Below are positions 35,128-46,969 of a stretch of 57,071 nucleotides of DNA, in pieces; the stretch's first letter is position 1, and the number at the start of each line of letters is the position of its first letter. Made by a program: the position numbers and the translations under genes. The notes below the pieces were generated by a model. That model worked only from the letters and a program-made list of their open reading frames with translations, did not search any database and was not told the origin of the DNA. This stretch comes from Candidatus Beckwithbacteria bacterium (lineage in GTDB: Bacteria > Patescibacteriota > Microgenomatia > UBA1400 > UBA1449), in assembly GCA_012797845.1 (NCBI GenBank), contig JAAZOH010000040.1:1-57071 (forward strand). The letters run 5' to 3'.

Positions 35128-35967
35128 TTAATGAGTAATAGTTTGATTAAGCCTCAAATGTAAATCGTATTTTTTAACTAAATTTTTAACTAAACTGTCG
35201 AGTTGTTTTTGATAGTTTTTTGACCGGCTTTGATAAAATTCCTGCCAAATGTTGGGGTCTAAATCTTTCATTTCTTTTTTAAGTCTTTCTAAAATATAGG
35301 GTTTTAAATTGATCTGTTCAACATAAACATCTTGATTGCCTGTTTCAGCAATACGTTTAAATAAATGTTCTAACACCTGAGGTTTTCCTACAAAATGAGG
35401 TAAAACTGGACCCACAAAGACATAGGTTTTTAAGCCAGCCTCTTGCAAGGATTTAATAGCTTGTAAACGTTTAGAAGCGGCAGGGGCATTAGTTTCAAAG
35501 TACCGTGAAATACCATCGTCTGTGGATGTAATAGTCAAACCAATTTCAACATTTTTTAATTTTTTAAAAACATCTATGTCCCGCAGTACTAAATCTGATT
35601 TACTTAAAATAGAAACTAGTCCGACAAATTGAAAATCAGCTAAAACTTCTAAACACTGCCTTGTTAGCTGATGTTTGGCTTCTACACCCTGGTAAGGATC
35701 TGTTACTGAGCTAAAAAAAATACTTACACCTTTGCCTTTTTGTTTAAGCTTGCCAAGTTCACTTGCTAAAAGCTTGGGAGCATTAGTTTTAACGTAAACA
35801 AATTTACCCCAATCCTGGATATCTCTATCCACAAACCGGCACATAAAACTGGCATAGCAATATTTACAAGCAAAACCACAACCGGTATAAGGATTGACCA
35901 CATAGTCACAATCCGGCAATTTGCTTTTTGTCAAAACCGATTTAGCTTCAATTTCCTGAATTTCCAT
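35128..35967 (-). CDS. SPL-like radical SAM protein
   Basis: A radical SAM enzyme of about 279 residues from ATG 35967. The Fe-S cluster motif is C30-x3-C34-x2-C37 in NPYTGCGFACKYCYASFM. It belongs to the spore photoproduct lyase-like group typified by Rv2578c/COG1533, with VFFSS-like VSIFFSSVTDPYQGVE and GPVLPHF in place. The longer ORF start at 36066 adds 33 residues lacking homology. The start overlaps the GT2 gene by 20 bases, so the two are co-transcribed. Substrate is unknown; DNA lesion reversal is one possibility. Confidence 0.9.
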   Translation of the reverse strand: MEIQEIEAKSVLTKSKLPDCDYVVNPYTGCGFACKYCYASFMCRFVDRDIQDWGKFVYVKTNAPKLLASELGKLKQKGKGVSIFFSSVTDPYQGVEAKHQLTRQCLEVLADFQFVGLVSILSKSDLVLRDIDVFKKLKNVEIGLTITSTDDGISRYFETNAPAASKRLQAIKSLQEAGLKTYVFVGPVLPHFVGKPQVLEHLFKRIAETGNQDVYVEQINLKPYILERLKKEMKDLDPNIWQEFYQSRSKNYQKQLDSLVKNLVKKYDLHLRLNQTITH

Positions 35968-36748
35968 AAGTTCCAATTTTAAGATAGATAACCGGATAAT
36001 GTAGGGCTGAAAATAGCGCAAACAAAAAACCTTGCCAACCATCAACATAACCTCGATGTCTGACAAAGCGCATCAAAAACCAGTAACAAGGTTTTAAAAA
36101 CATATAGTTTAGTAGTGAAAACATATTTTTCTTAAATCCTAGTTGAAGTAAATTTTCGGCCTCAATTGAAGTATACCGGTTGAACCGCTTTAGATATTTG
36201 CCCAGCTCTGGATCACCGTTATGGATTAAGTCATGTTTGAGAGTGTCAACTTTACCATCAATTTCTATTTGGGCATGCACACTGGAAGTGGTCATGGTAT
36301 TAACAACCATTTTTTGCTTGCTAAATTTGGCTTTACTATTTTTAAAAAGCCTAAGCACTGGATCGGGATAAGCTCCACCTTTTTGCAAGAATTTGCCTAA
36401 AAACCAATTCTTTCTGGGGATAAAGTAGCCATCACAGTCATTTTTTTTATTGATAGTCTCTTTAATCTCCTTAGCTAAAGCTGGGGATACAAACTCATCT
36501 GCATCAAGCTGAAGAACCCAATCTCCACGACAATGCTCTAGAGCTTTTTGTTTCATACTATGAAAATTATTAGGATCGTTTGGTACCAAAAAAACCTGAG
36601 CTCCCATTTGCTTGGCAATTTTCTTAGTCTGATCATGAGACATCCCGTCAACCACAATAATTTCATCTGCAATGTTTTTTACAGATTCAAGGCAGCGAGG
36701 TAAATTTACCTCTTCATTAAATGTGGCTAAGGCAACTGAAAGCTTCAT
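35948..36748 (-). CDS. WaaE/KdtX-like family 2 glycosyltransferase
   Basis: A 266-residue GT2 enzyme of the WaaE/KdtX group. The start ALATFNEEVNLPRCLESVKN, IIVVDGMSHDQT, the metal site QLDADEF and the acceptor loop with RNRKNWFLGKFLQKGGAYPD-type sequence (around residues 125-150) fit. The C-terminal part has hydrophobic stretches (WFLMRFVRHRGYVDGW) that may touch the membrane. The ATG is only two bases from the end of a 164-base hairpin, and a -10/-35 pair lies just beyond it. Ends in the radical SAM gene. Confidence 0.9.
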   Translation of the reverse strand: MKLSVALATFNEEVNLPRCLESVKNIADEIIVVDGMSHDQTKKIAKQMGAQVFLVPNDPNNFHSMKQKALEHCRGDWVLQLDADEFVSPALAKEIKETINKKNDCDGYFIPRKNWFLGKFLQKGGAYPDPVLRLFKNSKAKFSKQKMVVNTMTTSSVHAQIEIDGKVDTLKHDLIHNGDPELGKYLKRFNRYTSIEAENLLQLGFKKNMFSLLNYMFLKPCYWFLMRFVRHRGYVDGWQGFLFALFSALHYPVIYLKIGTYGNSGN

Positions 36749-36750
36749 AA

Positions 36751-36914
36751 ATGGACCTATTAAGAAATAATAAATGTTCTAATAATGTAGAATTTTTGTC
36801 AATTTTCAAGGCAGTTAATTCCGTAGCACTAGCTGTACTTGAGGAATTAAATAACGCAGAAAATTGGCAAAAAGACAAATTAGTAAATATTTACTTATTT
36901 TTTAATAGGTCCAT
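36751..36914. repeat. 164-base hairpin element, copy A
   Basis: The whole intergenic span folds on itself. Outer arms ATGGACCTATTAA are identical at both ends (36751-36763 and complement of 36902-36914), a middle pair TTGTCAATTTTC/GAAAATTGGCAA lies at 36796-36807/36859-36870, and an inner pair TTAATTCC/GGAATTAA at 36815-36822/36843-36850 leaves a 20-base loop with GTACTTGA. The second copy at 46806 has the same length and the same core (AATAAYGYAGAA, GTACTTGAG, TTAGTAAA) but different outer and inner arms that still pair. Confidence 0.8.
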
Positions 36915-45525: not shown

Positions 45526-46807
45526 AAGTTTTTTCAGGTAGCTCAAAACTTAGCCACAACAAATAAAACATAAGACCTATGCGAATATAATCTTTACACA
45601 GATCATACCCTGCCCCTAAAAATGGCAGGATTATTTTAGGTATTTGAGGAATTGAAGAACTTAAAAGCAGCATAAATAGTAAACCAGCTATCAAGACGGT
45701 TTTCTTTTGTTTTAAACTCTTAAATCCTGTCACAGCTAATAAAGGTAATAACCAAATAGAAAAAGGTTGGGAAAATACCTTGCCAGTAATAAAGAGAGTT
45801 AGGATATAGACTAAGCTAATTTTTAAAAGCAGTTGGAATATTTGAACATTAGAGATTGTAATTGGTTTTTTCAAAAGCTCCCAAAATCCCTCTAAAATAT
45901 TTTTATGTTTCTGGATTTTAATTAGTTTCCATAAACCATAACTCAAGACCCCTAAAATACTTACGGGAAATATAATCCCAAAGACTCGATTCATGGTATT
46001 TGAAACCGGACCAGCCATTTGAAAATCAGGAGGTTCTTCGACCCGATGTTCCGAATGGGTAAATAGATTAATTCCTTCAATCAAATTTGAACCAATCGAA
46101 CTGTATTTTAACGGTCTACCCATATGAAAAACCACACTTACAGATAAGGAAGATCGATACATAAATAAAGGTCCTCCCCAGATTAAAATACCTCCAATCA
46201 GCAAAGCCAGTAGTTCTTTTTTAAAAGATAATTTTTTACTAAGAAAAAATAAAGGCAGTAAAGGCAAGCTCATAAATTTAATAGCTCCGGAAAAGAAAAA
46301 AATTGTCCAAAAAGAAATTCTGTTTCTGATTTTAGCTTGATCATACAGCAAAATAGAAATCAAACTTATGGCTAAAAGTCCAGCAAAAAGCAAGTCGATT
46401 CCTTCGTATAAAAAATCTTTAACAATCAGGCCGCCTACAATATAAAACAGCAAGGAAATACGCTGAGAAAATTCTGAAAGCTTTAGTTTTTTAAAAGCCT
46501 TAACAATAAAAACAAAAAGTAGACAATCAAAAGCAAAGATCCCTAAACGGTAATTAAGGTAATACTTACCAACACCTAATTGATCTAGAAGTAGCGGAAA
46601 AATTAGGAAAGGAATAGTAGCAGGTGGGTATTCGAAGTAGTGTTCAAGATACGGCGGCATCCCATACCACCACATATTAGCATAACGCTCATAATCATGA
46701 GTCACATCAGAATAATGAGCCGGTGGAAAAAGCAATATTATAATTCGACTCAATAAAAATAGAATCGTTAAGATGGTAGCTTTTGATAATTTTTTAGGTA
46801 GTTTCAT
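45515..46807 (-). CDS. GT87/DUF2029-like GT-C glycosyltransferase
   Basis: A 430-residue polytopic protein of the DUF2029/GT87 type. The outer loop holds HYSDVTHDYERYANMWWYGM and EYPPATIPFLIFPLL, the YPP motif seen in polyprenyl-phosphate-mannose-dependent mannosyltransferases, with aspartates as candidate catalytic acids. About ten membrane segments. The start codon lies in the left arm of hairpin copy B (46806-46825), so translation initiation could be structure-dependent. The end overlaps the GT39 gene downstream. Confidence 0.88.
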   Translation of the reverse strand: MKLPKKLSKATILTILFLLSRIIILLFPPAHYSDVTHDYERYANMWWYGMPPYLEHYFEYPPATIPFLIFPLLLDQLGVGKYYLNYRLGIFAFDCLLFVFIVKAFKKLKLSEFSQRISLLFYIVGGLIVKDFLYEGIDLLFAGLLAISLISILLYDQAKIRNRISFWTIFFFSGAIKFMSLPLLPLFFLSKKLSFKKELLALLIGGILIWGGPLFMYRSSLSVSVVFHMGRPLKYSSIGSNLIEGINLFTHSEHRVEEPPDFQMAGPVSNTMNRVFGIIFPVSILGVLSYGLWKLIKIQKHKNILEGFWELLKKPITISNVQIFQLLLKISLVYILTLFITGKVFSQPFSIWLLPLLAVTGFKSLKQKKTVLIAGLLFMLLLSSSIPQIPKIILPFLGAGYDLCKDYIRIGLMFYLLWLSFELPEKTYEA

Positions 46808-46969
46808 AAACTAATTGCATAATAAGAAATATTTCAATAACGCAGAAATTTTGCACTTTTTCGAGGCATTAGTTGTCGATAGTACTAAACGTACTTGAGA
46901 CAAATAATAACGAAGAAAAAATGTAAAAGATCAAGTTAGTAAAGATTAGTTATTATGCATTTAGTTTAT
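46806..46969. repeat. 164-base hairpin element, copy B
   Basis: A second hairpin of identical length to that at 36751. Outer arms ATAAACTAATTGCATAATAA (46806-46825) and the complement of 46950-46969 agree at 19 of 20 positions. TTAGTTGTC (46869-46877) pairs with GACAAATAA (46899-46907) with one mismatch, leaving a 21-base loop ending GTACTTGA. The left arm includes the start codon of the gene at 46807 and the right arm the stop codon of the gene at 46966. Outer and inner arms differ from copy A yet remain self-complementary. Confidence 0.8.

Follow-up and report, generated by a model that had tools for sequence, protein, structure and literature searches.

Hairpin B, which lies between a GT39-like and a GT87-like gene, is very probably a structured MITE of 162-165 bp with IS5-like ends that inserted into an ATGA overlap, with both codons rebuilt. 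It lies in a 57,071-nucleotide stretch of DNA from Candidatus Beckwithbacteria (contig JAAZOH010000040.1; "the window" is this whole stretch). The features are listed in Table 1. Both gene names are tentative and used for orientation, because the PMT_2 match of the GT39-like protein (23.6 bits) was below the cut-off of 26.1 and the GT87-like protein had no match in Pfam or NCBIfam.

Table 1. Positions of hairpin B, its codons, the adjoining genes and copy A in the window
Feature	Positions	Strand	Evidence
Hairpin element B, probable MITE copy, 162 nt (covariance-model span)	46807-46968	minus	covariance hit, E 1.2e-21 (B is among the model's own sequences); repeat arms; fold
TAA stop of GT39-like gene	46966-46968	minus	sequence, ORF, flanks and element ends; putative origin, T of left duplicate plus AA of element end
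ATG of GT87-like gene	46805-46807	minus	sequence, ORF, flanks; A and T putatively the right copy of a duplicated AT
Left copy of putative target duplicate AT	46968-46969	minus	B flanks compared with empty junctions; right copy at 46806-46807
Near-invariant apical hairpin CTCAAGTAC..GTACTATCG with internal loop	46876-46901	minus	conservation across copies
Upstream gene, GT39-like membrane protein, 526 aa	46966-48546	minus	ORF; sub-threshold PMT_2; homologues adjoin GT87 in L021, L026 and L027
Downstream gene, GT87-like membrane protein, 430 aa	45515-46807	minus	ORF; relatives in 7 of 52 other genomes searched
Copy A, same element	36752-36913	minus	covariance model; 3 nt before ATG of GT2 gene (35948-36748)

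Hairpin B and the junction it occupies

The hairpin at B was real and far above chance level. Its arms (46806-46834 and 46941-46969) are 29 nt each with 86% complementarity, and the 201-nt region folded at -47.7 kcal/mol, compared to -23.0 ± 3.4 kcal/mol for shuffled sequences (z of -7.2), with none of 200 shuffles equal or better. The sequence-only reading had placed the stop of the GT39 gene in one arm and the start of the GT87-like gene in the other, and the open reading frames bore this out: one paired foot holds the TAA (46968-46966), and the other the first base of the GT87-like ATG.

The placement of these codons was the outcome of insertion. It had been suggested that the hairpin may set translation or processing of the downstream gene, a proposal that would lose ground if relatives had the same gene pair without the hairpin, and this is what we found. 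The GT39 gene was directly upstream of GT87 in three of nine GT87-related loci examined in relatives (L021, L026 and L027), and the element was absent from these three junctions, which come from other families of the order and not from the window's own genus. The pair therefore works without the hairpin. The two genes overlap by ATGA in L026 and L027 and are separated by a 9-nt gap in L021. When the flanks of B (...ACGTTA and TGAAACTACC) were joined, they read TTA TGA AAC, the same ATGA overlap as in L026. The GT39 protein ends in KTL here, KTPL in L026 and KT in L027, and the GT87 protein begins with MK in all. The hairpin-free pair in relatives and the joining of the B flanks to ATGA together lead us to conclude that the positions of the stop and start codons are a consequence of where the element landed.

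We propose that B inserted into the ATGA stop/start overlap of the GT39-GT87 pair and that AT was duplicated at insertion, leaving one copy on each side. On the right, AT followed by G would restore the ATG, and on the left, T followed by the terminal AA of the element would make the TAA; the empty junction in the window's own genus would be expected to read TTATGAAAC. Neither protein is disrupted, which would account for the survival of the insertion. The transcript would now contain a 160-nt hairpin between the two cistrons, probably uncoupling GT39-like from GT87-like, and this hairpin may be a target of double-strand-RNA processing or may affect stability, as proposed for the ERIC and Correia elements.

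Copy A, which folded with a z of -5.4, had been described as having arms that also end two bases from the downstream ATG. The closeness to the ATG held, and the distance measured was 3 nt. Copy A does not have a stop codon in an arm because the upstream stop is 15 nt outside the element. Stops 1-3 nt inside an end were found, among 59 copies, in B, C10a, C10b, G049a, L092 and L086. G049b follows the same logic but with another outcome: in G049 only 2 nt separate the element from the ATG, and the reading frame upstream continues 31 nt into the element and then stops; the 7 of 7 other members of the genus have no element there and their genes overlap by 11 nt. The G022b site was empty in 5 relatives. 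Empty sites in relatives, a mark of a MITE, were thus present at both loci.

The proximity of the element to start codons was largely expected. A start codon was ≤14 nt from an element end in 32 of the 59 copies, and gene gaps in the window are mostly <20 nt, so such closeness would often arise anyway. For copies in this genome (G000), 11 of 14 by inspection and 10 of 14 by an automated count were ≤14 nt from a start, compared to 61 of 162 TA sites in the gaps of the window (p 0.002, against a null that uses this window and TA sites rather than ANT), a tentative excess beside starts. The orientation relative to co-directional neighbours was 25 versus 12 (p 0.047), or 23 versus 12 (p 0.09) after subtracting two orthologous duplicates. 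There was no case of a ribosome-binding site lost through insertion, and a 4-base Shine-Dalgarno match was present in just 6 of 36 listed genes of the window. At L135, L136, L138, L139 and L141, a CTGCC stretch is just before the ATG of a kinase gene and is common to relatives with and without the element; several of these loci have a TAAGATA-like promoter box beside it.

The element family, its ends and its movement

B is one of 14 full-length copies of 162-165 bp that are dispersed in this genome. Similarity searches of the genome with B and with A first revealed the dispersed copies, and 13 of them were then used to build a covariance model; 12 further rows in the G000 search with this model were the opposite strand at the same places. 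A model from 18 copies was positive for this genome and for 9 of the 87 others examined in the order (Patescibacteria), 10 of 88 in all. The element is thus short, multi-copy and dispersed, as a MITE should be. The positive genomes belong to two families (f1 and f10), and two genomes of the same family, G001 and G002, had no match to the 18-copy model, indicating that the spread is patchy. One of the positive genomes, G022 (CP011212.1), is titled candidate division TM6, and kinship places it in this order; the title is probably outdated.

Copies were numerous in G063 (JAHIVK01, a Patescibacteria MAG), with at least 33 model rows. This genome (loci L071-L090 and the JAHIVK loci among L147-L222) has the appearance of an element burst, with dozens of similar copies and many contigs ending inside one, and it also has truncated forms and short forms of 40-70 bp bearing the same ends. 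A search with the f10 apex pattern returned 80 stretches. G063 accounted for 59 of them, many at contig ends, as expected because the repeats are near-identical. The model accepted every one of the 16 labelled Pacebacteria, Parcubacteria, Microgenomatus, TM6 or uncultured bacterium and rejected the 5 belonging to other phyla, which were taken to be chance. The same pattern had 0 hits in viral contigs, and the exact G000 apex pattern had 0 hits in the genome contig collection. Searches of Rfam gave no element match up to an E of 1 at five loci with full-length copies, and at the short form in L049 gave weak matches to miRNA models, far under the cut-off. That short form (G043:C1, 1501-1564), a hairpin of 64 nt, bears the terminal repeats of the element and is located about 160 nt upstream of a 16S rRNA gene. 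In L169, from 2448, an internal repeat hairpin of unrelated sequence is enclosed by element ends, forming a repeat that is composite or nested.

The counts refer to a fetched set of 59 copies, and alignment A5 contains 57 of these (L108 and L110 omitted). Outside the set are G043 L059 and L128 and further model rows from G063 and G076; the G049 copy on contig C2 (L052/L160) is real by the model and is outside all counts.

The ends of the element matched those of IS5-like elements. The terminal inverted repeats are 18 bp, AGACTTGTNGCGAAATAA in related genomes and AGACTTATTGCAAAATAA in G000. Hits to DDE_Tnp_1 led to a 1,016-bp IS in G014 that has 18 of 18 bases of the element end on both sides of its transposase, which is a DDE_Tnp_4 protein (PF13359), IS5-like, with a score of 90 bits against NF033581 (IS5), below the cut-off of 140. 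Searching the 88 genomes with this transposase found three (G014 itself, G021 and G046), and all three carry such ends, the homologues in G046 and G021 being flanked by close versions. Terminal repeats common to an autonomous element, another property of MITEs, were therefore found in three IS5-like elements of about 1 kb. Because the IS5-like transposase had no match in any of the 10 element-positive genomes, including the one-contig G022, we infer movement in trans from the ends: the element was most likely mobilised in trans by an IS5-like DDE enzyme.

The element is not a simple internal deletion of this IS, since the similarity between them, judged by eye, stops about 19 bp in; origin by internal deletion of a parent IS, which calls for interior homology, was rejected. 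The parent IS was not found in G000 or in the fetched stretches of G063. Good pairs of ends in G000 were about 160 bp apart, and the long pairs inspected in G063 join the ends of separate elements. Among the positive genomes, DDE_Tnp_1 was present in G060 and G063 only, and element ends were absent at the two loci seen (L227 and L230).

The flanks of the element are those expected of a short target duplication. We counted flanks from the 59 copies after dropping orthologous duplicates, divergent ends and contig edges, which left 46 left flanks, 44 right flanks and 53 pairs. There was an A at -2 in 35 of 46 and a T at +2 in 33 of 44, and the bases at -1 and +1 were identical in 25 of 53 pairs, compared to 14.9 expected. 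These statistics fit a 3-bp ANT duplication, a signal seen across copies, many single copies having no exact duplicate. The element proper would then be AGACTT...AAGTCT, with the apparent outer T and A belonging to the duplicate. The duplication proposed for B is 2 bp (AT), unlike the 3-bp ANT of the family. The ISL2 subgroup of IS5 makes ANT target duplications of 2-3 bp. Beside the IS copies, the flanks were AAT/AAT in G046 and TTT/TTT in G014. A reading with a TA target (IS630-like) was dropped for ANT/AT after the flank statistics.

Conservation of the copies and competing explanations

Several observations support selection on some copies after insertion. Among 13 copies, 32 of 53 base pairs had compensatory double changes, a number reached by 0 of 500 shuffles and compared to 7-10 in slid controls. 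The covariation score was 0.388 (for a structure derived from the same alignment), compared to 0.137 for shuffles and ≤0.087 for slid structures. Mismatched loops between the helices are also conserved, which disfavours mere correction of one arm by the other. The positions of the apex were mostly ≥95% conserved in 57 copies. A decayed copy is also present (L128 in G043).

Two pairs of orthologous copies were 94-96% identical, compared to 66-81% for their flanks, a contrast of two pairs with coding DNA that includes synonymous sites. G022b and L100 were identical at 157 of 164 positions, with 105 nt unbroken, and their 300-bp flanks at 236 of 295 and 238 of 300 (474 of 595; Fisher p 1e-7). L101 and L109 were identical at 152 of 161 positions, and their flanks at 213 of 300 and 198 of 297 (411 of 597; Fisher p 5e-13). 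Each orthologous copy was its partner's closest match in the genus set and unusual end bases were common to both, which makes independent insertion, or homogenisation by other copies, improbable. In L101 and L109 the upstream reading frame runs into the element, which supplies its C-terminal residues (WSLNK) and stop codon; this coding role could account for some of the conservation of one arm, but not for the remainder. By eye, this element is between a thymidylate synthase-like gene, the one ending in WSLNK, and a dihydrofolate reductase-like gene. In genus g22, selection appears to have retained the element at these two sites since before the species split. The suggestion that the hairpin sets translation or processing, rather than being a passive insertion, is thus partly supported: it gains from copies elsewhere, with their orthologous conservation and compensatory pairing, whereas at B the codon placement follows from insertion and an effect on the downstream gene would be hypothetical.

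A dedicated cis-acting translation or processing signal, linking or controlling both genes of the GT39-GT87 pair, would draw on the codons in the feet of B, a stop in one and a start in the other, on its strong structure and on the two orthologous copies conserved beyond their coding flanks. It is unlikely, however, given that the pair occurs without the hairpin in three relatives, that the 14 copies are dispersed beside other genes, that G049b is empty in 7 of 7 relatives, and that copies occur in either orientation. This last property is also consistent with passive MITE debris without effect, in which pairing would be conserved merely by the transposition needs of the source copies, as are the truncation and shortening seen among G063 and G043 copies and the decay of L128. 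We regard passive debris as a real possibility, if not a probable one; its difficulty is with the mutually closest copies fixed since the species split, which differ less than the coding DNA around them.

Quite unlikely, in our judgement, is a mobile promoter or terminator whose outward ends would supply signals for transcription, a property that Correia elements can have. Starts do lie close to many ends, and at G022b, by eye, a promoter-like stretch precedes the element and the ATG follows it, but inspection by eye found neither a common TATAAT-like hexamer at the ends nor a U-tract past the foot, and the short gene gaps make nearness to starts largely expected. A REP-like element moved single-stranded by a Y1/HUH enzyme (TnpA-REP) would account for selection acting along the whole hairpin, and both the full-length covarying structure with its conserved internal loops and the one Y1_Tnp gene in G000 would suit it. 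Yet, of the 10 positive genomes, 9 gave no match to the Y1_Tnp transposase that a REP/RAYT system has in its genome, and a Y1/HUH mobiliser was rejected on this ground; moreover, the flanks are symmetric and partly duplicated and the ends match a DDE element, making this explanation very improbable.

We therefore return to a MITE with IS5-like ends in the ATGA overlap as the preferred reading of B. Beyond it, and rather doubtfully, the family might be a mobile RNA module: IS5-type transposition would scatter the element, some copies that landed at gene junctions would become conserved cis-acting mRNA hairpins, and one host factor would read the apical CTCAAGTAS-N-STACTATCG.

Relation to known elements and significance

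The element resembles repeats described in other bacteria. ERIC (IRU, RU-1) is described as an imperfect palindrome of 127 bp that is non-coding, lies between genes of enterobacteria within transcribed sequence and forms a long RNA stem-loop, for which an effect on mRNA stability has been proposed (PMC2229807). The two are alike as short palindromic hairpins in transcribed sites and differ in sequence, length and host; for our element, moreover, the ends recur on IS elements. The Correia element (NEMIS, CREE) of Neisseria is described as a MITE, and cleavage of its RNA hairpin by RNase III, with effects on neighbouring genes, has been proposed (PMC2229807, PMC2649163). Both are MITE hairpins with unrelated sequences (155/107 bp for Correia), and ours is known from sequence. 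RUP of pneumococcus is described as a non-autonomous 107-bp repeat with terminal repeats common to IS630-Spn1 (PMC2229807). Terminal repeats tie both RUP and our element to an IS, IS630 with a TA target for RUP and an IS5-like element with ANT for ours. Compared to the IS5-family (DDE_Tnp_4) element of G014, the 18-bp ends are identical, and our element has neither a transposase nor a common interior. Among the papers found by our literature searches, judged by title and abstract opening, none described a MITE family in Patescibacteria.

Patescibacteria genomes are small and their gene gaps very short, so tolerance of insertions matters. The element shows a route to such tolerance, in which landing on a stop/start overlap would let both codons be rebuilt from the duplicated target and the element's own end. 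If the idea of a mobile RNA module were true, one dispersed signal would control several Patescibacteria operons. It was unexpected that two fixed copies change more slowly than the adjoining protein-coding DNA, and because of this slow change, the usefulness of a bacterial MITE hairpin to its host may be tested by comparison.
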